Of a DNA stretch of 64,000 nucleotides, positions 170 through 35,776 are shown piece after piece. How positions within the stretch are numbered: position 1 is the stretch's first letter; every line of letters begins with the position of its first letter. The position numbers and the translations under genes were made by a program. The notes under the pieces are model-generated. The model had not been told where the DNA came from. It saw only the letters and a list, made by a program, of their open reading frames with translations, and ran no database searches. Source of the stretch: Sphingobium sufflavum (GTDB lineage: Bacteria; Pseudomonadota; Alphaproteobacteria; Sphingomonadales; Sphingomonadaceae); contig NZ_JAJSSH010000003.1 of NCBI RefSeq assembly GCF_021403115.1, positions 310,001-374,000 on the forward strand, written 5' to 3'.

Positions 170-2260
170 TTACATACGCGCGCCACCCACCGGCTGGGTC
201 GGTTTGCGGGCTCCCAGCGATTCACGCGCGGCGGCGCGAATGGCGGACCAGATCTGGTGGACCTGGGCGCGGGAGAAGGGATATTTGGGCATGCCGCGTT
301 GCTGGAGCGCGCCCTCGTGCAACACTTCGTAGAGAGCGTCTTCCGACAGGGCGAGCTGGGATTCGCGCAGGTCCGGGCCGGGTGCGCCGCCCGAATGGAA
401 GTTGACGCCATGGCAGGAGGCGCAGGCCGCGCCGACCGCATAGCCCGCCGTCACATCCTTCTCGTCCAGCACGATGGCGGGGTCGTCCACGGCATGGACC
501 ACCATGTCGCGTGGTGGCGAAGCGGGGAGTTTCTGCTTGCCGCCCAGCGCGAAGGTCAGGAGGCGGCGCGGCTGTTGCCCATATTTCCAGCCGACGTTGA
601 GCGCGGAGGCCGCCGCCGCGACGGTGCCGCCCCAGCCGACGAGGACGGAGACATATTGCTTGCCCCCCGCCGAATAGCTCATCGGTGCGCCGATGATGCC
701 GAGGCCCGCGTTGAACTGCCACAACTGCTTGCCGGTCAGCGCATCATGGGCGCGGAACCAGCCATCGGCCGTGCCCTGGAACACCAGATTGCCCTCTGTC
801 GCCAGCGTGCCGCCATTCCAGGCGAAGGGGCGCGGCATCTTCCACCGCTGTTTCTGCGTCACCGGATCCCAGGCGACGAGCGCCCCCGTATTGTCGTCGG
901 GGTCATTCTTCACGAAGCTGATGTCGGTGCCGACGATGGCGAAACCGCCGCCGCCGGGGCCGAGCTTTGCATAGCGGCCAGCGACCTTCATGTAGGGGAT
1001 ATAGACCAGACCGGTCTTAGGGCTGTAGCTCATCGCCTGCCAGTTATGGCTGCCGATGGTGCTGGGGTAGAGGACGACCGGCCCGTCCTGATAATGGATG
1101 CCGGGCATTTCGACCGGGCGGCCGGTCTTGAGGTCGATATGGCTGGCCCAGTTCACCTTGCCCACCTTCTCGGCGGAGATCAGCTTGCCCGTCTCCCGGT
1201 CCAGCACATAGAAGAAGCCGTTCGTCGGGAGCTGCATCAGCACCTTGCGCGGCTTTCCGTCGATGGGGATGGTGGTGGAGATCATGTTCTGGACGGACTT
1301 ATAGTCCCAGCCCTCATTGGGGTTCTGCTGATAGTGCCAGACATATTTGCCGGTGTCGGCGTCGAGCGCGACGATGGAGGCGAGGAAGAGATTGTCGCCG
1401 CCCGCCGGGTTGCGCTTGGCCACGTCATAAGGGCCGCCATTGCCGGTGCCGATATAGATGCGGTTCATTTCGGGATCGAAGGTCATGCCATTCCAGGCGG
1501 TGCCGCCAGTGCCGACCTTCCACCATTCGCCCGACCATGTCTTCGCGGCCATTTCCATGACCGGGTCGCCCTTATTCTGCTCCGGCGTGCCCGGCGCGGT
1601 GTAGAAGCGCCACGCCTGCTGGCCGGTCGCCTGATCGTAAGCGGTGACATAGCCGCGTTGGCCGATGTCCGCACCGCCATTGCCGATGATGACCTTGCCC
1701 TTGAAGGTACGCGGCGCGCCGGTCAGGCTGTAGAAGCTCATGCCGCCGGGCAGTGTGTTGACGCTCCATTCCACCGCGCCGGTCTTTGCATTGAGGGCGA
1801 TCAGGCGACCGTCGAGCGCACCGATGAAGACCCGGCCATTGTCATAGGCGACGCCGCGATTGACGCCCATGCCAAAGCCCATGCGGCCGGTCTTCCAGAT
1901 TTCCGGGTCGTAACGCCACAACTGCTTGCCGGTCACGCCGTCCACCGCATAGACCGCGCCATAGCTGCCGCTGAAATAGAGGACGCCGTCGACGGCGAGG
2001 GGGGTGGCCTCCAGCGAGACTTCGCCTTCCAGCTCCAGCGCCCATTGCAGGCCGAGCTTGCCGATGGTGGCGGTGCTGATCTGGCCGAGTTGGCTGAAGC
2101 CGCTCTCGTCCGCGCTGCCGCCGACATTGCGCCAGTCGGCGCCGGTCCCGCCGGTGGGCGCGGGGCGCGCCGCAGGGCCGGGCTGCTGCGCCACGATCGC
2201 CGCGCCGGAAGAGGCCAGCGCGAGCGCGCAGCCCAGTCTGATCCATCGCGCCTGTCTCAC
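170..2260 (-). CDS. PQQ-dependent alcohol dehydrogenase with C-terminal cytochrome c domain (quinohaemoprotein)
   Basis: This is a 696-residue protein with a GTG start, preceded by a GGGGAGA-like ribosome site and followed by an N-terminal signal peptide (hydrophobic segment ending near AAIVAQQ). Residues of about 40-560 form the beta-propeller of the methanol/ethanol quinoprotein family, with repeated W-motifs such as TGKQLW and TGKQLWQF. A WDY motif after NPNEG matches the segment that carries the catalytic Asp. A haem-binding CASCH near residue 613 starts a C-terminal cytochrome c domain, so electrons should pass from PQQH2 to haem c in the periplasm. The vicinal Cys-Cys pair normally found just before VNRG is absent; the sequence there is GMGVNRG. 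The exact alcohol or sugar-alcohol substrate cannot be read from the sequence. Confidence 0.9.
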   Translation of the reverse strand: MRQARWIRLGCALALASSGAAIVAQQPGPAARPAPTGGTGADWRNVGGSADESGFSQLGQISTATIGKLGLQWALELEGEVSLEATPLAVDGVLYFSGSYGAVYAVDGVTGKQLWRYDPEIWKTGRMGFGMGVNRGVAYDNGRVFIGALDGRLIALNAKTGAVEWSVNTLPGGMSFYSLTGAPRTFKGKVIIGNGGADIGQRGYVTAYDQATGQQAWRFYTAPGTPEQNKGDPVMEMAAKTWSGEWWKVGTGGTAWNGMTFDPEMNRIYIGTGNGGPYDVAKRNPAGGDNLFLASIVALDADTGKYVWHYQQNPNEGWDYKSVQNMISTTIPIDGKPRKVLMQLPTNGFFYVLDRETGKLISAEKVGKVNWASHIDLKTGRPVEMPGIHYQDGPVVLYPSTIGSHNWQAMSYSPKTGLVYIPYMKVAGRYAKLGPGGGGFAIVGTDISFVKNDPDDNTGALVAWDPVTQKQRWKMPRPFAWNGGTLATEGNLVFQGTADGWFRAHDALTGKQLWQFNAGLGIIGAPMSYSAGGKQYVSVLVGWGGTVAAAASALNVGWKYGQQPRRLLTFALGGKQKLPASPPRDMVVHAVDDPAIVLDEKDVTAGYAVGAACASCHGVNFHSGGAPGPDLRESQLALSEDALYEVLHEGALQQRGMPKYPFSRAQVHQIWSAIRAAARESLGARKPTQPVGGARM

Positions 2261-2303
2261 CGTGATTCTCCCCTTGCCGGACGTTGCCGTTCGCTACATA
2301 CTG

Positions 2304-2313: not shown

Positions 2314-2462
2314 TAGGATGAATGTCGCTAAGGCGTCAAGCCATGTCGGCCGCAAGCAGGGGTGGTGGTCGCCCCTATTGTGAGATAGAAATCTCAACCC
2401 GTGGGGCGGTTTTCCGCCCTCCGGTCCCCGCGGCATCGCGCTGTGCAGATGGAGGCCCGTCG

Positions 2463-3089
2463 ATGACTGAAATCCTGATCCCGCTCTCGCCGGTTTCGGT
2501 CGAGATTGCGGATGATGCGGAGGAGCAGCGCGCGCCGCGCAAGGGCCGTTCCTCCGCGCGGGGTGCGATCCTGGCGGCGACGGAGGCGCTGATGGTTGAG
2601 GAGGGCTATGCCGCCGTCACCACCCGGCGCGTGGCCAAGATCGTGGGCGTCACCCCCGCGCTGATCCATTATCATTTCGCGACGACCGACGATCTGTTGC
2701 TGGCGCTGTTCCGCTCGACAAAGGACGGTTTTCGCGAGCAGTTGGCGGCGTCGCTGGCGGGGGACGATCCGCTGACCCTGTTGTGGCGGCTGAACAGCGA
2801 GCCGGAGCGTGCGCGGCTGGTCATCGAGTTCATGGCGCTGTCCAACCATCGCAAGGCGATCGCGGCGGAAATGGCGGAGTATATCGTGGAGGTGCGGCAG
2901 ATTCAGGCTGCGGCGCTGGCGCGGGTATTGCCGGCCGGGCCGAACGTGGCGCCGATGGCCGCGGCAGTGCTGGTCGCGGGGATGGCGCGGTCGCTGGTGA
3001 TGGAGGATTTGCTGGGCGTATCGCTCGGCCATGACGAGGTGCAGGAACTGGTAGAGCGAATGATCCGCTTCGCACGGGGAGAGGGCTGA
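2463..3089 (+). CDS. TetR/AcrR family transcriptional regulator
   Basis: This gene encodes 208 residues from the ATG at 2463. The N-terminal helix-turn-helix lies at residues of about 30-80: RGAILAATEALMVEEGYAAVTTRRVA is followed by VGVTPALIHYHF, the recognition-helix pattern typical of TetR. The remainder is a variable helical ligand-binding domain that I cannot assign to a ligand. Reading upstream to 2322 would add a non-conserved, Pro/Gly-rich stretch, so the 2463 start is preferred. It is divergent from the PQQ dehydrogenase and is a plausible regulator of it. Confidence 0.85.
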   Translation: MTEILIPLSPVSVEIADDAEEQRAPRKGRSSARGAILAATEALMVEEGYAAVTTRRVAKIVGVTPALIHYHFATTDDLLLALFRSTKDGFREQLAASLAGDDPLTLLWRLNSEPERARLVIEFMALSNHRKAIAAEMAEYIVEVRQIQAAALARVLPAGPNVAPMAAAVLVAGMARSLVMEDLLGVSLGHDEVQELVERMIRFARGEG

Positions 3090-3371: not shown

Positions 3372-3698
3372 ATGCTTCGTACTCCTCTGATCGCCGGCTT
3401 CGTCGCGCTGGCCGCCACCCTGTCCGCTCCGGCCGCCTTTGCTCAGGCTGCCGCCGCAGCGCCTGCCGCTGCCGCCGCCTATAGCGTGGGCGCGACCGAC
3501 ATCGGCACGTTGCTGGACAATCCGGCGACCAAGGCGGTGATCGACAAATATCTGCCCGGCTTCTCCGGCAACCCGCAGATCGACATGGCCCGTTCCATGA
3601 CGCTGGAGCAGGTTCAGGGCTTCGCGCCCGACCAGATTTCGGCCGACTCGCTCGCCAAGATCAACGCGGACCTGGCCAAGGTGCCCGCGAAGAAATAA
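3372..3698 (+). CDS. Small exported protein made of one unnamed ~70-residue domain
   Basis: This protein has 108 residues from the ATG at 3372, which has a good ribosome site (GGAACAGG) and begins a textbook Sec signal peptide ending AFA-QA. After an Ala/Pro-rich linker the mature protein is one domain (nucleotides 3480-3695) with the pattern G-LL-P-x-x-KA-x-x-DK-x-x-PG, then SMTL, Q-x-FA and a C-terminal L-x-x-x-x-x-x-LA-x-(V/I/L). The same domain is seen at the C-terminus of the P450 (35552-35773) and near the N-terminus of the ThuA-like protein (13553-13789). There are no Cys, His or obvious catalytic residues, so a binding or structural role is more likely than catalysis. I do not recognise a named family. 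Confidence 0.8.
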   Translation: MLRTPLIAGFVALAATLSAPAAFAQAAAAAPAAAAAYSVGATDIGTLLDNPATKAVIDKYLPGFSGNPQIDMARSMTLEQVQGFAPDQISADSLAKINADLAKVPAKK

Positions 3699-3736: not shown

Positions 3737-4219
3737 GTTCTGACGGACGGCGTTCGGCAGTGTGAGCGGTTACGGAAGATACGGCGATAAGGCCGGAAGC
3801 CAAGTCTCCGCTTTTCCCTGACGCTGGCATTTCTTCCCCGGCGGGCACACTGCTTGTCCCGACAGTGTGGTGGCGCAGCATCCGGTCATAGGGTCTGCAA
3901 GCCCCGGACAGCTTCGGTTCAGCTGGTTGCGACCATGTTGCCTCGATAGTCCGATCCGGTGGAGGAGAGTCGAAGATGACTGCGGTGCGAAGGACGATGT
4001 GCGCACGGATATAGAACGCACGCGACACCTTCTCCTGCTCAAAGATTTCAATAGGCCAACAGATGCTGCGCGATGATGGAGCCGGGTGCCCGACCGGCCT
4101 CCGGACCGTGTGGCCGGGTTTGGTGGGTGGTTGCCATCGTCCGGCAGGATGCAGCCGCCGATGACAAGTTTCTTGACCCGCGCGATCTTTCGTCGCCGGT
4201 CCCGATGGAGAGATTTTGC
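3737..4219. other. Intergenic region upstream of cytochrome c
   Basis: About 480 bp have no gene I can support. Open frames on both strands lack recognisable motifs and are rich in Arg and Pro, as non-coding frames of GC-rich DNA are. No repeat or RNA structure stood out. Confidence 0.4.
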
Positions 4220-4588
4220 ATGCGTGTTTCCCGTTTCGCGGCCGTTCTGGCGGTCGCCACTTTCGCCACGACGGCTCAGGCTCAGGCGCAGAAAAGCCCT
4301 GGCGAGCAATTGTTCGGCCAGCGGTGCAAGATCTGCCATAGTGTCGAGGCAAGCGGCCCCGCCCTGCTCGGTCCCAACCTGCGTGGCGTCGTGGGCCGCA
4401 AGGCGGGCAGCACGACTTTCCGATACTCCCCCGCGCTCAAGGCGTCGAACATCGGCTGGACCAAGGAAACGCTCGATAAATTCCTGTCCGGCCCGACGAA
4501 GATGGTGCCCGGCACGCGGATGGTCGTCTCCCTTCCTGACGCCAAGCAGCGCGCGGACCTCCTCGCTTATCTCGCCACTCTGCGCTGA
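4220..4588 (+). CDS. Class I cytochrome c (periplasmic)
   Basis: From the ATG at 4220 the product has 122 residues; an in-frame ATG at 4205 would add five. The N-terminus is a Sec signal peptide ending around AQAQAQ. A single CKICH haem-binding motif follows, in a setting typical of small mitochondrial-like/c2 cytochromes: GEQLFGQRCKICH, then GPNLRGVVGRKAG, FRYSPALK, and a Met in the TRMVV segment as the likely sixth ligand. It is a soluble electron carrier and could accept electrons from the quinohaemoprotein at 170-2260, although the genes are not in one operon. Confidence 0.9.
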   Translation: MRVSRFAAVLAVATFATTAQAQAQKSPGEQLFGQRCKICHSVEASGPALLGPNLRGVVGRKAGSTTFRYSPALKASNIGWTKETLDKFLSGPTKMVPGTRMVVSLPDAKQRADLLAYLATLR

Positions 4589-12134: not shown

Positions 12135-13454
12135 GTGGCCGGACCGATCAATATCAGTGAAGTGAGCGCGGCCCCGGCCGCCGATGGGGGCACGGGTACA
12201 GGCAGAAGCTATGGCAAGGCGCTGACCCTGCTCGCCAGCCTGTTCTTCATGTGGGGCTTCATCACGGTCATCAACAACACGCTGCTGCCGCATCTGCGCA
12301 GCGTGTTTGACCTCAGCTACACCCAGACGACGCTGATCGAGTCGGTGTGGTTCATCGCCTATGGTGTCGCCTCCATCCCATCGGCCAAGCTGATCGAGCG
12401 GATCGGATACCAGAAGTCGCTGGTGACGGGCCTGCTCATCATGGCGGCGGGTGCGTTGGGCATGATGCTGGCCGCCAGCATCCCCTCTTATGGCGTGACC
12501 CTGTTCATGTTGTTCGTGATCGCCAGCGGCATCACGCTGCTGCAGGTTGCGGCCAACCCCTATGTCGCGGTGATCGGATCGCCGGAGACGGCCTCCAGCC
12601 GCCTCAACCTCGTGCAGGCGTTCAATTCACTGGGCACGATGCTGGCCCCGGCGTTCGGCGCTTATCTCATCCTCGGCCGGTCGGTCGGTGGCACGGCGAA
12701 GGGTGACCGGGTGCTGACCGCCGCCGAACGGCTGGCCGACGCCCAGTCGGTGGTGCTGCCCTATGGCATTGTCGCTGCGGTGCTGGTCGTGCTGGCGCTG
12801 GTCATCGCGCGCTTTCCCCTGCCCGCGATGGGTCAGGCGACCAGCCGCGTCGCAAAGGAAAACCGCAAGAATCATTCGCTGTGGCGGCACCGCAACCTGG
12901 TGTGGGGCATCCCGGCCATGATCTTCTACCTGCTGGCGGAGATCGGCGTCGCCAACCTGTTCGTCAATTTCGTCAGCCAGCCGGACATCGCGAACCTGAC
13001 GCATGAGGAGGCGGGCAATTACCTGACCTTCCTATGGGGCGGGATGATGGTTGGCCGCTTCGTGGGCGCGGGCATCATGCAGCGCGTCGCCGCCGAGAAG
13101 GTGCTGGCCACCTTTGCCGCCGGCGCCTTCGTGGTGATGGTGGTGACGATATTCGCCCATGGCTCGGTCGCCATGTGGTCGCTGATCCTCGTCGGCCTGT
13201 TCCATTCCATCATGTTCCCGACCATCTTCACGCTCGCCATCAAGGGGCTGGGTCCGTTGACCGAGGAAGGGTCGGGCCTGATGATCATGGCCATCGCGGG
13301 CGGTGCGCTGGTAGTGGTGCAGGGTACGCTGGCCGACATGTTCGGTCTCCAGAACAGCTTTGCCCTGACGGCCATCTGCGAATTGTTCGTTCTGGGATAT
13401 GCCCTGTGGGGTACCCGTGTTCCGGTGGACGCCGCCGAGGGAGAAAAAGCATGA
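12135..13454 (+). CDS. FucP-family sugar:H+ symporter (MFS)
   Basis: This 439-residue protein starts at a GTG, eight bases after GGGAGAG. It is a 12-helix major facilitator of the FHS/FucP group: LLASLFFMWGFITVINNTLLPHLR is the typical first segment, followed by LLQVAANPYVAVIG and LNLVQAFNSLGTMLAP. These proteins import L-fucose, glucose/galactose or related hexoses and pentoses by proton symport through the inner membrane. As first gene of the plus-strand operon with DgoK, DgoA and a lactonase, galactose and/or arabinose is the expected cargo. Its stop overlaps the next start (ATGA). Confidence 0.9.
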   Translation: MAGPINISEVSAAPAADGGTGTGRSYGKALTLLASLFFMWGFITVINNTLLPHLRSVFDLSYTQTTLIESVWFIAYGVASIPSAKLIERIGYQKSLVTGLLIMAAGALGMMLAASIPSYGVTLFMLFVIASGITLLQVAANPYVAVIGSPETASSRLNLVQAFNSLGTMLAPAFGAYLILGRSVGGTAKGDRVLTAAERLADAQSVVLPYGIVAAVLVVLALVIARFPLPAMGQATSRVAKENRKNHSLWRHRNLVWGIPAMIFYLLAEIGVANLFVNFVSQPDIANLTHEEAGNYLTFLWGGMMVGRFVGAGIMQRVAAEKVLATFAAGAFVVMVVTIFAHGSVAMWSLILVGLFHSIMFPTIFTLAIKGLGPLTEEGSGLMIMAIAGGALVVVQGTLADMFGLQNSFALTAICELFVLGYALWGTRVPVDAAEGEKA

Positions 13455-14602
13455 TCTGTCGTTCGTTGATCGGCACCGCGGCGGCGGCCCTGCTGGCCTT
13501 GGCCGCCCCCGCGCAGGCCGCGCCGGTGCTGGACTGCCCATTGCGCGACATGCCCTTTTCCATGCAGTCGCCGATGATCGACATATTGCTCAGCCCGGCG
13601 GCGAAGGCCGTGGTCGATCGCAAGCTGGGCGGCCTGCTGGACAAACTGCCCAAGCAGATGTTCGGCACGACCGCGCCCAGTTTTGCGTCTATCCTGACGA
13701 TCAAGGAAGCGGCGGGCTTCGCCACGCGCGGTGGTGGGGCGATGCCCGACCTGACCGGCCTGGACGAGGAACTGGCGAAGATCCCTGTGACCGCCGCCGA
13801 TCGAACCGCCCGCTGCGTGCGCTATGATGACGACCGGCCGACGTTCAAACTGCCCGCGGGCAAGCCGCGCATCCTGCTGTTCGAAAAGATGACCGGTTTT
13901 CGCGATGGCCCCTCCGTCGACGCTGCCCATGCCGCCTTTACCGCGCTGGCCGAGCGCAAGGGATGGGCGCTGGTCTCCACGTTGAAGGGTGGAGCGATCC
14001 ATCCGTCGGTGCTGAAGAATTTCGATGCCGTCATCTGGAACAACGTCAGCGGCGACGTGCTGACCCTGAGCCAGCGCAAGGCGTTGCAGGCCTTTGTGAA
14101 GGGCGGCGGCGGTTTCGTGGCGGTCCATGGATCGGCGGGCGATTTCGCCACTTTTTGGGACTGGTATGTGGACGATCTGATCGGCGCGCGGTTCGCGGGT
14201 CATCCCATGTCTCCGCAATTCCAGGATGCGCGGGTCGTGGTCGAGGCCAAGGACAGCCCGTTGGCCAAGGGTCTGCCCGCCGAATGGGTGATGAAGGACG
14301 AATGGTACAGCTTCAGGAACAATCCGCGCGCCAGCGGATCGACGATCATCGCCACGCTGGACGAGAAAAGCTATAAGCCCGATGGTCTGGCTGGTCAGAA
14401 TTTGCGAATGGGCGACGATCATCCGGTCGCCTGGACCCGCTGTATCGGCAAGGGGCGGATGTTCTATTCCGCCATCGGCCACCGGCCTGAAACCTATAGC
14501 GAACCCCATTATGTGACGATGCTGGAAAATGCTCTGGGCTGGGCGACCGGCACGGCATGCGCTGCGCCCGCATCCGCACAGAAACCGGCATCGGCCAAGT
14601 GA
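13451..14602 (+). CDS. Exported ThuA-like protein with N-terminal unnamed domain
   Basis: This gene encodes 383 residues from the ATG at 13451, translationally coupled to the transporter stop. A Sec signal peptide (LLALAAPAQA) is followed by a divergent copy of the ~70-residue domain found at 3480 and 35552 (MIDILLSPAAKAVVDRKLGG, SILTIKEAAGFA, LDEELAKIPV). A ThuA domain covers about residues 130-370: PRILLFEKMTGFRD, VIWNNVSGDVL, GGGFVAVHGSAGDF, the HPMSPQF segment, DEWYSF, HPVAWTRCIGKGRMFYSAIGH. ThuA-like proteins have a glutamine-amidotransferase-type fold and recur in sugar-oxidation loci, but their reaction is mostly unproven. The location predicts a periplasmic role in sugar processing. 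Confidence 0.85.
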   Translation: MICRSLIGTAAAALLALAAPAQAAPVLDCPLRDMPFSMQSPMIDILLSPAAKAVVDRKLGGLLDKLPKQMFGTTAPSFASILTIKEAAGFATRGGGAMPDLTGLDEELAKIPVTAADRTARCVRYDDDRPTFKLPAGKPRILLFEKMTGFRDGPSVDAAHAAFTALAERKGWALVSTLKGGAIHPSVLKNFDAVIWNNVSGDVLTLSQRKALQAFVKGGGGFVAVHGSAGDFATFWDWYVDDLIGARFAGHPMSPQFQDARVVVEAKDSPLAKGLPAEWVMKDEWYSFRNNPRASGSTIIATLDEKSYKPDGLAGQNLRMGDDHPVAWTRCIGKGRMFYSAIGHRPETYSEPHYVTMLENALGWATGTACAAPASAQKPASAK

Positions 14603-30360: not shown

Positions 30361-30410
30361 ACGCGAATATTGAATTCATAATTTGAACCACAAATAAATG
30401 GGAGGTTGCG

Positions 30411-33400
30411 ATGTTTGGAACCCGGTTGCGTCTGGCGCTCGTCACAGCCACCGCGCTCAGCGCCCTGCCTGCCTTGGCTGACACGCCTGCGGCACCCGTT
30501 CCGGCGGCCACGTCCGCGCTGGAGGGCCAGTTCCGCGATCCCCCGGCCAGTGCCCGTCCGCGGGTGTGGTGGCACTGGATGAACGGCAATATCTCGAAGG
30601 ACGGCATCGCCAAGGATATGGCGTGGATGAAGCGCGTTGGCATCGGCGGTCTCCAGAATTTCGATGCAAACCTGAAGACGCCGCAGGTGGTGGACAAGCG
30701 CCTCGTCTATATGACGCCGGAGTGGAAGGACGCCTTCCGCTTTGCCGCGACAGAGGCGGATCGGCAGGGGCTGGAACTCGCCATCGCGGCCTCCCCCGGC
30801 TGGTCGGAGACAGGTGGGCCGTGGGTGCCCACCGAGGACGGCCTGAAAAAGCTGGTGTGGAGCGAGACGGATGTCGTGGGCGGCAAGGCGTTCGCGGGTA
30901 AGCTGGCCGCGCCGCCCTCCGTCACGGGACCGTTCCAGACCGTTGCCAAGACCGGACCGGGCAATGCGCTGGGCGGGGGTGATCCCGCCCGCCCGATCCC
31001 CACCTATTATGCCGATGTGGCGGTGTTGGCCTGGCCGGTCGATGCAAGCCCCGCCGTGTTCCAGCCCAAGGCAGTGGCACAGGACGGGCAGGTGCTGGAC
31101 ATCGCGCCACTGACCGATACCGACCTGATGAGCGCGGTGTCGATCAAGAAGGGGAGCGGCGCGAATCCGGCATCGGTGACGCTGGATTATGGCAAGGCGC
31201 AGACGATGCGGTCGGCCAGCCTGTTCCTGCCCGGTGCGGCCATGCTGTTCATGGGCGCGGACACAAAGCCGCGATTGGAGGCGAGCGACGACGGGGCGGC
31301 GTGGCGCACGGTGGCGGAGATGCCCGCCGGAATGGTGCCGACCACGATCAGCTTCTCGCCGGTTACGGCTCGCTATTTCCGCGTGCTGTTCCTTCCTGCG
31401 GGTGCCAGTCCCATGTCATCCTTCTTTGCCCCGGCCCCCGGTGTCGACCTGTCTGCTCTGTCCTTCATGGCGGCGGGCGCGTCAGGTGGCGCGACGGGTA
31501 TGAAGATCGGCGACCTGCGCCTATCGCCCGACGCTCGCATCGACCGTTATGAGGCGAAGGCAGGCAACCAGATTGAGCAGGATTATTACGCACTGAGTGC
31601 GGGCCTTCCAGAGGTGGCAGGCGTCGCGCCGGGCAAGGTGGTCGACCTGACCGCGAAAATGCGCGCCGACGGCACGCTGGACTGGACTCCGCCCAAGGGC
31701 CGCTGGCGCGTGCTGCGACTGGGTTATTCGCTGCTGGGCACGGAGAATCATCCCGCGCCGCCAGAGGCGACGGGTCTGGAGGTCGACAAGTTCGACGGTG
31801 CTGCTGTGCGCCGCTACCTCGACCATTATATCGGCATGTACCGCGACGCAGCGGGCAAGGAGATGGTCGGCGCCAAGGGCGTGCAGGCGATCCTGACCGA
31901 CAGTATTGAGGTGGGCGCGGCGAACTGGACCCCGCGCATGGTCGAGCAGTTCAAAGCACTGCGCGGTTATGACCCAACGCCCTGGATGCCCGCGCTGACC
32001 GGCGTGGTGATCGGGTCGCGCGCGGACAGCGACCGCTTCCTCTATGATTATCGCCGCACGTTGGCAGACCTGATGGCGTCGCAACATTATGGCACCGTCG
32101 CGGCGGTTGCGCATGAGAATGGCCTGAAGGTCTATGGCGAGGCGCTGGAGGATCATCGTCCCTCACTGGGCGACGATATGGCGATGCGCCGCTACACGGA
32201 CATACCGATGGCGGCGATGTGGACCTATCGCAAGGAAACCGGGCCGAAGCTCTCCTATATCGCGGATATCAAGGGGGCGGCGTCGGTTGCCCATATCTAT
32301 GGTCAAAATCTGGTGGCGGCTGAGTCGCTGACCTCCTCTCTCAGCTATTGGCGGCATGCGCCGGGCAACCTCAAGCCAGTGATCGACCTGGAGTTCGTGA
32401 ATGGCGTCAACCGTCCGGTCATTCACACCAGCGTGCACCAGCCGGTGGACGACAAGGTGCCGGGACTCTCGCTGTTCATGTTCGGCCAATATTTTAACCG
32501 GCACGAAAGCTGGGCAGAAATGGCGAAGCCGTGGGTGGATTATATCAGCCGCAACTCACTGATGCTGCAACAGGGGCGCAATGTCGCGGACGTCGCCTAT
32601 TTCTATGGCGAGGAAGCGCCGCTGACCGGCCTATATGGTGACAAGCTGGTGCCCGACGCGCCAAAGACCAGTGCCTATGACTTCATCAATGCCGATGCCT
32701 TGTCGGACGCAATCAGCAATGAGGGTGCGGAACTGGTCGCCAAGGGCGGTGCGCGGTATCGCCTGCTCTATCTGGGTGGGTCGTCGCATCGGATGACGCT
32801 GGCCACGTTGCGGCGGATCGCGGCGCTGGTAGAGGGCGGTGCGACCGTGGTGGGTAAGGCGCCGGAGGGTAATCCGGGGCTGGCGGGCGATGCGGCCGAC
32901 TATGCGGCGCTGGTCAAGCGGCTGTGGTCTGGCGCAGCGGAGACGGTGGTCGGCAAGGGCCGGGTTATCGCCTCCAACGATGTCGAGGCGGCGCTGCGGA
33001 GCATTGGAATCGCGCCGGACTTCCGTTTCACTGGTGGGCAGGCGGACAGCGAGATTCCCTTCCTCCACCGCAAGCTGGCCGATGGCGACAGCTATTTCCT
33101 GGTCAACCGCAAGGAGCGAGCGGAGACGGTGGAGGCGCGTTTCCGTGTCACCGGCAAGGCGCCTGAACTGTGGCATGCGGAGACAGGCACATCCGAACCG
33201 GTCAGCTATCGCATCGAAAATGGCGAGACGATCGTGTCGTTGACGCTGGCGGCCGAGCAGTCAGTGCATGTCGTGTTCCGTAAGGCGGCCAAGGCGGAAG
33301 CACTGGCCATCAAGGCACTGGTTCCCGTTGAGCGTGGGCGGATCGAGAGTGCATGGACGGTGCATTTCCAGCCGGGCCGCAGTGCGCCGACCATTCCTGT

Positions 33401-33809
33401 CACCATGGCGACGCTGGCCCCTCTCAATGGGAATAAGGATCCGGCGATCAAATATTTCTCTGGCGTGGCGACCTATGCAAACAGCTTTGCAACCCCCGCA
33501 GGATGGAAGGCCGGGCAGCCGCTGTGGATTGATCTGGGCGCGGTGCATGAGCTGGCGGAAGTGTGGGTGAACGGCAAGTCGGCGGGAACGGTATGGCACG
33601 CGCCCTATCGCATCGACATCGGCGCGGTTGCCAAGGCCGGGCAGAATAAGATCGAGGTGAAGGTCGCCAATCTGTGGGTCAATCGCCTGATCGGCGATGC
33701 CCAGCCGGGTGCGAAGCCGGTGACATGGACTGCGCTGGCCAGCTACCGCAAGGATGCGCCGCTGGTGCCGTCGGGTCTCGTCGGTCCGGTGACGCTGCTG
33801 GGCCAGTAA
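30411..33809 (+). CDS. GH106 alpha-L-rhamnosidase, exported
   Basis: This 1132-residue protein has a Sec signal (LVTATALSALPALA) and the GH106 opening PRVWWHWMNGNISKDGI, followed by MKRVGIGGLQNFDA and LAIAASPGWSETGGPWV. These match the family founded on the Sphingomonas paucimobilis rhamnosidase. The C-terminus (about 1000-1132) is a galactose-binding-like beta-sandwich with LWIDLGAVHELAEVWVNGKSAGTVWHAPYRIDI. It should release terminal alpha-L-rhamnose in the periplasm. It directly follows the rhamnose isomerase gene, so hydrolysis, uptake and catabolism are encoded together. Confidence 0.93.
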   Translation: MFGTRLRLALVTATALSALPALADTPAAPVPAATSALEGQFRDPPASARPRVWWHWMNGNISKDGIAKDMAWMKRVGIGGLQNFDANLKTPQVVDKRLVYMTPEWKDAFRFAATEADRQGLELAIAASPGWSETGGPWVPTEDGLKKLVWSETDVVGGKAFAGKLAAPPSVTGPFQTVAKTGPGNALGGGDPARPIPTYYADVAVLAWPVDASPAVFQPKAVAQDGQVLDIAPLTDTDLMSAVSIKKGSGANPASVTLDYGKAQTMRSASLFLPGAAMLFMGADTKPRLEASDDGAAWRTVAEMPAGMVPTTISFSPVTARYFRVLFLPAGASPMSSFFAPAPGVDLSALSFMAAGASGGATGMKIGDLRLSPDARIDRYEAKAGNQIEQDYYALSAGLPEVAGVAPGKVVDLTAKMRADGTLDWTPPKGRWRVLRLGYSLLGTENHPAPPEATGLEVDKFDGAAVRRYLDHYIGMYRDAAGKEMVGAKGVQAILTDSIEVGAANWTPRMVEQFKALRGYDPTPWMPALTGVVIGSRADSDRFLYDYRRTLADLMASQHYGTVAAVAHENGLKVYGEALEDHRPSLGDDMAMRRYTDIPMAAMWTYRKETGPKLSYIADIKGAASVAHIYGQNLVAAESLTSSLSYWRHAPGNLKPVIDLEFVNGVNRPVIHTSVHQPVDDKVPGLSLFMFGQYFNRHESWAEMAKPWVDYISRNSLMLQQGRNVADVAYFYGEEAPLTGLYGDKLVPDAPKTSAYDFINADALSDAISNEGAELVAKGGARYRLLYLGGSSHRMTLATLRRIAALVEGGATVVGKAPEGNPGLAGDAADYAALVKRLWSGAAETVVGKGRVIASNDVEAALRSIGIAPDFRFTGGQADSEIPFLHRKLADGDSYFLVNRKERAETVEARFRVTGKAPELWHAETGTSEPVSYRIENGETIVSLTLAAEQSVHVVFRKAAKAEALAIKALVPVERGRIESAWTVHFQPGRSAPTIPVTMATLAPLNGNKDPAIKYFSGVATYANSFATPAGWKAGQPLWIDLGAVHELAEVWVNGKSAGTVWHAPYRIDIGAVAKAGQNKIEVKVANLWVNRLIGDAQPGAKPVTWTALASYRKDAPLVPSGLVGPVTLLGQ

Positions 33810-34180: not shown

Positions 34181-35776
34181 ATGACCGCCCTTGTCGACCG
34201 CGATTATTTCAGCGACCATAGTATCCTGCGCGACCCCTATGCCTATTTCGAGGCGGTGCGGGAAAAGGGGCCGGTCTATCCCCTGCCCGGCCGGGACATC
34301 GTGATCGCCACCGGCTTTGAGGAATCGCTGGAGGTATTGCGGAATACGGAGGATTTCTCTTCTGTCATCGCACCGGGTGGACCGGCGGTGCCCTTGCCGT
34401 TTGAGCCGGTATCGGACGACCTCAGCGCACAGATAGAGGAATATCGCACGGCGTTTGTCGGCGGGGATCTGGTCGTGTCGCTCGACGGGGAAGCGCATGG
34501 CTTCTCCCGCTCCATCCTGAGCCGCCTGTTCACGCCCTCGCGTCTGAAGGCGAACGAGCAGTTCATCAGCGATTTCGCCGACCGGCTGGCGCGGGATGCG
34601 GTGGCGAAGGGCGGGTGCGAATTGATAAAGGAGATCGCCACACCGTTCGTCACGCTGGTCATTGCGGACCTGCTGGGCGTGCCGATTGACGACCGGCAAA
34701 TCTTCATGGACGCAATCGAAGCCGGACCGCCGCCAGGCAGTCTGGACGCGGAGGATGCCTTTTCCGAACATCAGCCATTGGTGTTGATGGGGCTGTATTT
34801 CGCGCAATATGTGGTGGACCGCCGCGCCAATCCGCGCGACGATGTTTTGTCCGAACTATCCGCCAGCACCTTCCCGGACGGATCGACGCCGGATGCCATG
34901 GAGATCGTGCGCCTTGCGACATTCCTGTTCGGTGCGGGGCAGGATACCAGCGCCAAGCTGCTCGGCAACGCCATGCGGTTCATCGTCGACCGGCCGGATT
35001 TGCAACAGGTGTTGCGTGCCGATCCATCGCAGATTCCTGGCTTTCTGGAGGAGGTACTGCGCCTGGAGGGATCGACGAAGATGACCGCGCGGCTGGCCCG
35101 GCGGGATACGCAGGTCGCTGGAGTGCCGATCCCGATCGGTACGAAGGTCATGATCGCACTGGCTGCCGCCAACCGCGACCCGCGCCGTTGGGAAGCGCCG
35201 GACGAGTTCAGGATCGGTCGACCGAAGATCAAGGAGCATCTTGGCTTTGGCCGCGGCGCGCATGTTTGCATCGGCGCGCCTCTCGCCCGTGTCGAGGTGC
35301 AGGCGATATTGGAAAAGCTGCTGGCCTATACGGCGGACATCGACCTGGTCGGGGAAGAGCATGGCGAAAGGAGCGAGCGTCGCCTTGACTATGAGCCGAG
35401 CTTCATCATTCGTGGGTTGGCGAAGATGCATCTGAAGCTGACTCCGGCGGAGTCTTTCTCTCCTGCGTCCGATGCGCAGGTGGACGCGAAGGGCGGGCGA
35501 GGACTGTTCGGCTTCGGACGCAAAAAGGCAGGGGCGGTCCCGGCGGTTCCCTATGCGACTGCGCAGACCAAACTGGGCGTGCTGCTGGCAGACCCGGTGG
35601 CAAAGGCGTTGTTGGACAAGCATTTCCCCGGCGTCAGCGCGGACAAGCGCATCGGGTTGGGCAAGAGCATGACCCTGCGCGCGATACAGTCCTTCGCGGC
35701 GGACATGTTTACCGACGAGGCGCTGGATGCGCTGGACGCAGAGCTTACCGCGCTGGGGCCGCGCGGCGGGAGTTGA
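34181..35776 (+). CDS. Cytochrome P450 with C-terminal unnamed ~70-residue domain
   Basis: This gene encodes 531 residues from the ATG at 34181. Residues of about 1-430 are a bacterial soluble P450: I-helix FLFGAGQDTSAKLL with the acid-alcohol pair region, K-helix ExxR as EVLR, and the haem loop FGRGAHVCIGAPLAR with the thiolate Cys. About 100 residues more than a usual bacterial P450 follow: a Gly/Lys-rich linker (GLFGFGRKKAGAV) and then, from residue 458 (35552-35773), a copy of the domain found alone at 3480 (LGVLLADPVAKALLDKHFPG, KSMTLRAIQSFA). No ferredoxin or reductase domain is visible. The substrate is unknown; adjacency to the rhamnosidase gene is suggestive only. Confidence 0.9.
   Translation: MTALVDRDYFSDHSILRDPYAYFEAVREKGPVYPLPGRDIVIATGFEESLEVLRNTEDFSSVIAPGGPAVPLPFEPVSDDLSAQIEEYRTAFVGGDLVVSLDGEAHGFSRSILSRLFTPSRLKANEQFISDFADRLARDAVAKGGCELIKEIATPFVTLVIADLLGVPIDDRQIFMDAIEAGPPPGSLDAEDAFSEHQPLVLMGLYFAQYVVDRRANPRDDVLSELSASTFPDGSTPDAMEIVRLATFLFGAGQDTSAKLLGNAMRFIVDRPDLQQVLRADPSQIPGFLEEVLRLEGSTKMTARLARRDTQVAGVPIPIGTKVMIALAAANRDPRRWEAPDEFRIGRPKIKEHLGFGRGAHVCIGAPLARVEVQAILEKLLAYTADIDLVGEEHGERSERRLDYEPSFIIRGLAKMHLKLTPAESFSPASDAQVDAKGGRGLFGFGRKKAGAVPAVPYATAQTKLGVLLADPVAKALLDKHFPGVSADKRIGLGKSMTLRAIQSFAADMFTDEALDALDAELTALGPRGGS

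Follow-up and report, generated by a model that had tools for sequence, protein, structure and literature searches.

Three proteins encoded in a 64,000-nucleotide stretch of Sphingobium sufflavum (positions 310,001 to 374,000 of contig NZ_JAJSSH010000003.1; hereafter the window) share a domain of ~70 residues, which forms a single sequence family occurring both as a small exported protein of its own and as an appendage of diverse enzymes. Judged by sequence profiles, this module is related to the C-terminal domain (CTD) of the flavin mononucleotide (FMN)-binding β-glucuronidases (GUS) of the gut and to a domain seen in crystal structures of glycoside hydrolase family 3 (GH3) enzymes. We describe here its architectures, distribution, predicted fold and the neighbourhoods of its solo form, and tentatively favour the interpretation that it is a mobile cap that captures and orients hydrophobic substrates, in cis on enzymes or, as the solo protein, in trans. 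A preliminary description of the window had already recognised the domain in the three proteins, which sequence profiles confirmed, chance similarity of the copies being rejected; its relationship to gut glucuronidases and GH3 tails, its pairing with TetR genes and its presence in saponin clusters are new.

Copy 1 (3471-3695) follows a signal-peptide-like N-terminus (~3372-3449) in a small exported protein of 108 amino acids (3372..3698, plus strand). Copy 2 (35543-35764) is C-terminal in a cytochrome P450 without a signal peptide (34181..35776, plus strand; P450 domain, Pfam E 4.5e-25), to which it is joined by a linker composed largely of G, K and A. Copy 3 (~13541-13795) follows the signal-peptide-like N-terminus of a ThuA protein (13451..14602, plus strand), whose ThuA domain occupies residues 140-365 (Pfam E 2.6e-55). 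Because the module occurs both behind signal-peptide-like N-termini and in a P450 that lacks one (as judged by eye), a targeting signal is ruled out, in agreement with the preliminary description. That description also called copies 1 and 2 very close, but their identity is only 35%, and although all three window copies are real, the genome contains more than three. A weak seventh copy lies in a 137-residue open frame on another contig (G000:C34:138910-139119, minus strand, L106; E 3.1e-5); it resembles a second small frame beside a solo copy in L061 (1726-2040) and L040 and possibly represents a non-exported sub-type.

The relationship to glycosidase tails emerged from profile searches of the PDB. 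A profile of 18 sphingomonad copies (A4) matched residues 658-733 of a β-glucuronidase (7kgz) at E 6e-4, and a 40-row profile (A9; six rows from Bacillota, none of them GUS or GH3) searched against 177,635 PDB sequences matched 7kgz at E 1.4e-6 and the GH3 β-glucosidase 7ms2 at E 1e-4. Matches of a three-row profile (A1) to TALE-like design repeats and a mitoribosomal protein (E 0.27-1.5) were taken as chance, as were further weak PDB matches with E values from 0.28 upwards. A first scan of genome contigs with the P450 copy as the query gave no match. A scan with the 7kgz tail yielded 48 loci, the titles of which were mostly Lachnospiraceae, Oscillospiraceae and other Clostridia. A profile of 22 tails aligned from these loci (A5) was recovered by hhalign with a probability of 95.6 against A4 (E 1.2e-8, 68 columns) and of 97.4 against A9 (E 1.5e-11, 71 columns). 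Over its whole length, the module is thus significantly similar to the tail domains that Bacillota carry on their FMN-GUS, GH3 and GH78 glycosidases. Ten of these genomes, chosen because they already had a match, contained 52 matches; ten such proteins were assigned by Pfam to GH78 (three), GH3 (two), GH2 (two), apiosidase-like and alpha/beta-hydrolase proteins (one each) and a family-less frame of 106 residues. A Clostridiales genome (G837) also contained short frames (L183 1489-1695 and L171 1480-1647) in which the domain is neither attached to an enzyme nor preceded by an obvious signal peptide; solo forms therefore occur outside the sphingomonads as well.

The module resembles the CTD of Rh2 and Rh3 GUS (7KGZ 649-732) in its significant profile match, its core length and its C-terminal attachment through a linker. 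It differs in that the GUS copies carry an 11-residue insert with an RGDVAESVKDN-like stretch, and that the papers on these enzymes count ~150 residues as the CTD, whereas the module corresponds to the last ~85. The hosts of the GUS CTD are gut Bacillota, and the available parts of these papers describe no solo or P450 form. Truncation of Rh2 GUS after residue 644, which from the residue numbering probably removes just this module, lowers mycophenolate glucuronide activity eightfold, and the CTD is described as flexible, modelled outside the active site and perhaps a gate (PMC9377255). Rh3 GUS needs its CTD for triclosan glucuronide; this CTD is mobile and has not been resolved in any structure to date, and mutants including CTD ones were reported without structural change (PMC8748916). 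We take 7KGZ to be the Rh3 GUS of the latter paper, which mentions the entry twice.

In GH3 enzymes, by comparison, the domain is resolved in Clostridium thermocellum BglB (7MS2, 675-750) and Paenibacillus PSTG1 (8J9F and 9LQL, 676-753), where it is always fused to GH3 and has a longer loop between helices 2 and 3 than the module. The GH3 enzyme PSTG, whose structures carry the resolved domain, hydrolyses sesaminol triglucoside, which has a sterically hindered aglycon, and its nearest characterised relative is a glucocerebrosidase (PMC3622683). Our literature search found no paper describing the GH3 tail domain itself. Another C-terminal domain of a GH3 enzyme, GlyA1-Ct, is modelled by its authors as a β-sandwich and so is not this domain, although removing it reduces activity 2- to 18-fold (PMC5104943).

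Searches of Pfam and NCBIfam turned up no model of the domain, as the preliminary description had anticipated: the three window copies (E <= 10) and 18 members (E <= 1) gave nothing credible, and the credible Pfam matches to ten Bacillota proteins all stop short of the domain. The weak rows obtained, namely Toluene_X (E 0.71), rrmJ (E 0.05-0.11) and ANAPC2 (E 0.004, in one of the 18 members), are far from cut-offs or single. NF041610 (exo-alpha-(1->6)-L-arabinopyranosidase) spans the domain in two GH3 proteins (L170 and L184) and was rejected as a model of the domain since it is a full-length enzyme model.

The module is predicted to be a small all-helical fold of ~70 residues. The AlphaFold2 model of copy 1 has a predicted local distance difference test score (pLDDT) of 89.8, and that of the ThuA copy is weak (pLDDT 62.0, predicted template-modelling score 0.45). 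Structure comparison by VIA-align, covering 100 of 101 Foldseek-ranked chains for model 1 and 12 chains for a second model, suggested that the fold may resemble that of DUF1858/ScdA_N, represented by 2k53, 2k5e and 2fi0, which we take to be DUF1858 proteins, and by residues 2-62 of YtfE. The DUF1858 (PF08984) and ScdA_N Pfam models were absent from the matches of the three window copies and the 18 members at the above thresholds. The ScdA_N domain of YtfE is flexibly tethered and communicates with the di-iron site through a hydrophobic channel, and the N-terminal domain of ScdA is unresolved in crystals (PMC9268430, PMC12412097), a behaviour that would parallel that of a mobile module.

Matches at E <= 0.001 were found in 21 of 61 genomes (the genome of the window and 60 relatives), 20 of them in the same genus. 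In a family-wide sample, at least 88 of 397 genomes, in at least 32 of 96 genera, contained a match, and the majority of the listed matches were short open frames, the solo exported form being retained across many genera. A phylum-wide sample gave at least 14 of 398 genomes, seven from the same family and six from a single further family of the class; the remaining match was weak and was taken as chance. Because both searches scored at most 14 candidates per genome, these counts are lower bounds, and ThuA copies were missed. Matches in L101 (G775), G059 (E 8.6e-5) and L009-L011 were likewise taken as chance.

The portability that the preliminary description had proposed was borne out. Besides the solo form, the module is C-terminal on P450, GH5, carboxylesterase (L079, L082 and L088), GH2, GH3, GH78, apiosidase-like and alpha/beta-hydrolase proteins and N-terminal on ThuA. 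GH5 enzymes with Glyco_hydro_5_C carry one or two C-terminal copies (L042, L043 and L044), arranged in tandem in L042 (4827-5276) and L043 (4794-5252). Attachment behind the catalytic domain thus holds for the P450, GH5 and esterase fusions, but the position of the domain is not fixed, because ThuA copies are N-terminal and most sampled sphingomonad copies are solo (53 of 81 non-Bacillota rows in the tree sample). In a tree of 110 copies (a single midpoint-rooted FastTree of ~75 columns), clades were formed by the P450 (seven copies, support 0.83), ThuA (13, 0.96), esterase (three, 0.97) and Bacillota copies (29, 0.80), and GH5 copies formed no single clade. L101 and partial pieces in L130, L154 (two) and L173 were dropped from a family profile and from the tree, as were most of L108-L155 from the tree.

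Solo genes tend to lie near GH3 genes. Among 42 hand-picked solo places in 27 genomes, a GH3 gene was present within 10 kb of 13 (0.86 expected) and within 5 kb of 10 (0.43 expected), and none of 20,000 simulations attained either count. The selection omitted G263 535966, 1212482 and 3460820, G081:C3:286929, G231:C1:1168190 and the weak C34 copy; the 13 places include shared synteny (G003, G010 and G023) and amount to ~ten neighbourhoods, and both solo copies of the window genome are among the 29 without a nearby GH3 gene. In plasmid records, where it is annotated as a hypothetical protein, the solo gene adjoins glycosidase and TetR genes, the glycosidases being GH3 together with a glycosyl hydrolase in S. 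herbicidovorans, GH3 and a rhamnosidase in Novosphingobium ES2-1, GH97 in S. parapaucimobilis, and GH2, another glycosyl hydrolase and a TonB receptor in S. yanoikuyae (pKN1), with a P450 fusion downstream. No glycosidase was present within the stretch examined around the solo gene of Novosphingobium P6W, and two further records carried no annotation. Solo and P450 copies stand together in pKN1 (L192 8923-12964, ~4 kb) and on contig C4 of the window genome (G000:C4:92131-98246, ~6 kb apart), with a different gene order between them.

Four genomes of one genus contain 10 solo copies in all, and each of these has a TetR_N domain encoded within 1 kb, where chance would give 1.6% per copy; these genomes were chosen for having several solo copies, three share synteny, and the weak C34 copy, whose nearest TetR_N lies ~3.5 kb away, was omitted. 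In other genera, the solo-copy flanks examined often gave no match to our local TetR profile.

Two solo copies on pTomTYG73a are placed inside what appear to be plant-saponin degradation clusters. In L193, the solo copy is flanked on one side by a GH3 gene and on the other by a regulator, a GH39 gene and a second β-glucosidase gene, and in L194 it lies behind GH106, GH3 and a ~650-bp TetR-profile gene. The saponin enzymes of Sphingobium RC1 comprise SpGH3-3, SpGH39-1 and SpGH3-4 (tags 01942, 01944 and 01945) and a second set of SpGH3-1, SpGH106-1 and SpGH78-1 (03247, 03248 and 03250) (PMC10653915). Because the order of enzyme families fits, L193 and L194 are probably the same clusters as these tomatine-degradation clusters of RC1. 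The RC1 enzymes worked alone in vitro, and the small protein is unmentioned in the available parts of that paper (PMC10653915). The two GH3 proteins tested in L193/L194 end within ~20 residues past their Fn3 domain and therefore have no room for the module. The solo protein is a candidate accessory protein of these clusters.

We propose that the module is a small, non-catalytic, all-helical unit, joined to enzymes by a flexible linker or exported alone beside them, that would form a mobile cap or gate over the entrance to the active site and help to capture bulky hydrophobic substrates or aglycones and bring them into orientation, such as saponins, lignan glycosides, drug glucuronides, sphingolipid-like glycosides and P450 substrates. 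The cap would act in cis in the P450, GH5, esterase, ThuA, GH2, GH3 and GH78 fusions, and the solo exported protein, encoded beside a TetR gene and near glycosidases without the domain, may do the same job in trans. We favour this interpretation because there is no conserved catalytic residue, the attachment is flexible and truncated GUS loses activity. Where the substrates of the partner enzymes are known, they are glycosides whose aglycones are bulky or greasy (drug glucuronides, sesaminol triglucoside and saponins), and P450s and carboxylesterases are also enzymes of hydrophobic substrates. An effect on the turnover of bulky substrates is known from the cited papers for GUS only (PMC9377255, PMC8748916). 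In a more speculative and rather doubtful extension, the solo protein would be a detachable, diffusible substrate-handling subunit common to the secreted saponin and lignan glycosidases of sphingomonads, which Bacillota would have fused permanently to each glycosidase, and the same module would have moved inside the cell onto P450s oxidising the released aglycones.

A possible, if somewhat unlikely, alternative is a docking or oligomerisation module, by which enzyme-borne and solo copies bind each other or a common partner and assemble the enzymes of a cluster. The P450 and solo copies within ~6 and ~4 kb of each other, the tandem copies on GH5 and the solo state of at least 20% of sphingomonad copies (53 of 81 in the sample above) would fit such a role, but P450 copies in the cytosol could not come into contact with solo copies that are exported. 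It seems unlikely that the solo protein binds an inducer or substrate in the periplasm and is co-regulated by the TetR repressor encoded next to it: the proximity of TetR_N to all 10 solo copies and the TetR-annotated neighbours in plasmid records agree with it, but adjacency is not co-regulation, many solo copies of other genera showed no such TetR neighbour in the flanks examined, and the fused forms are left unexplained.

A passive appendage that aids only folding, solubility or stability would account for conserved columns that are mostly hydrophobic, P, G or T, with few conserved polar residues; it is, however, quite improbable given the eightfold loss in truncated Rh2 GUS (PMC9377255), the Rh3 mutants without reported structural change (PMC8748916) and the retention of the solo exported form in many genera. 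A redox or metal-binding relative of DUF1858/ScdA_N, suggested by the possible similarity in predicted fold, is highly improbable. The profile comparison with five DUF1858 sequences gave a probability of 0.9%, there was no Pfam match, and the cysteine motif seen in four of the five DUF1858 rows is absent from the module, in which Cys occurs beyond residue 12 in only nine of 148 copies and a CxxC or CC pair in one.

In the gut enzymes, the GUS CTD affects the reactivation of mycophenolate and triclosan and is described as structurally unresolved and of unknown working (PMC8748916, PMC9377255). Its link to resolved GH3 domains, to a solo protein of 108 residues and to P450, esterase, ThuA and GH5 fusions offers structural templates and simple test systems, and defines a family for which no Pfam or NCBIfam model was found.

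In the window, the gene order around copy 1 is a PQQ-dehydrogenase-like gene on the minus strand, TetR, the small protein and a cytochrome-c-like gene. The TetR-family regulator (2322..3089, plus strand; TetR_N E 3.2e-13; true start probably near 2463) adjoins the small-protein gene upstream. The divergent gene (173..2293, minus strand) is presumably a pyrroloquinoline quinone (PQQ)-dependent dehydrogenase, and the downstream gene (4073..4588, plus strand), in which CxxCH was seen by eye, is presumably a cytochrome c. Genes labelled as possible PQQ dehydrogenases flank solo copies in L226 and L228, as do homologues of the window gene in L209, and cytochrome-c-like neighbours were also present in L209 and L211. 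Just upstream of the P450 gene is a large open frame (30387-33806), which we assume to be a GH106-type α-L-rhamnosidase. On plasmids of Sphingobium TomTYG65 and TomMM15 (L198 and L205), a ~650-bp TetR-profile gene and a solo copy are followed by a ~3.35-kb gene annotated as a DNA-binding protein, an arrangement that recurs in L226 and L228.
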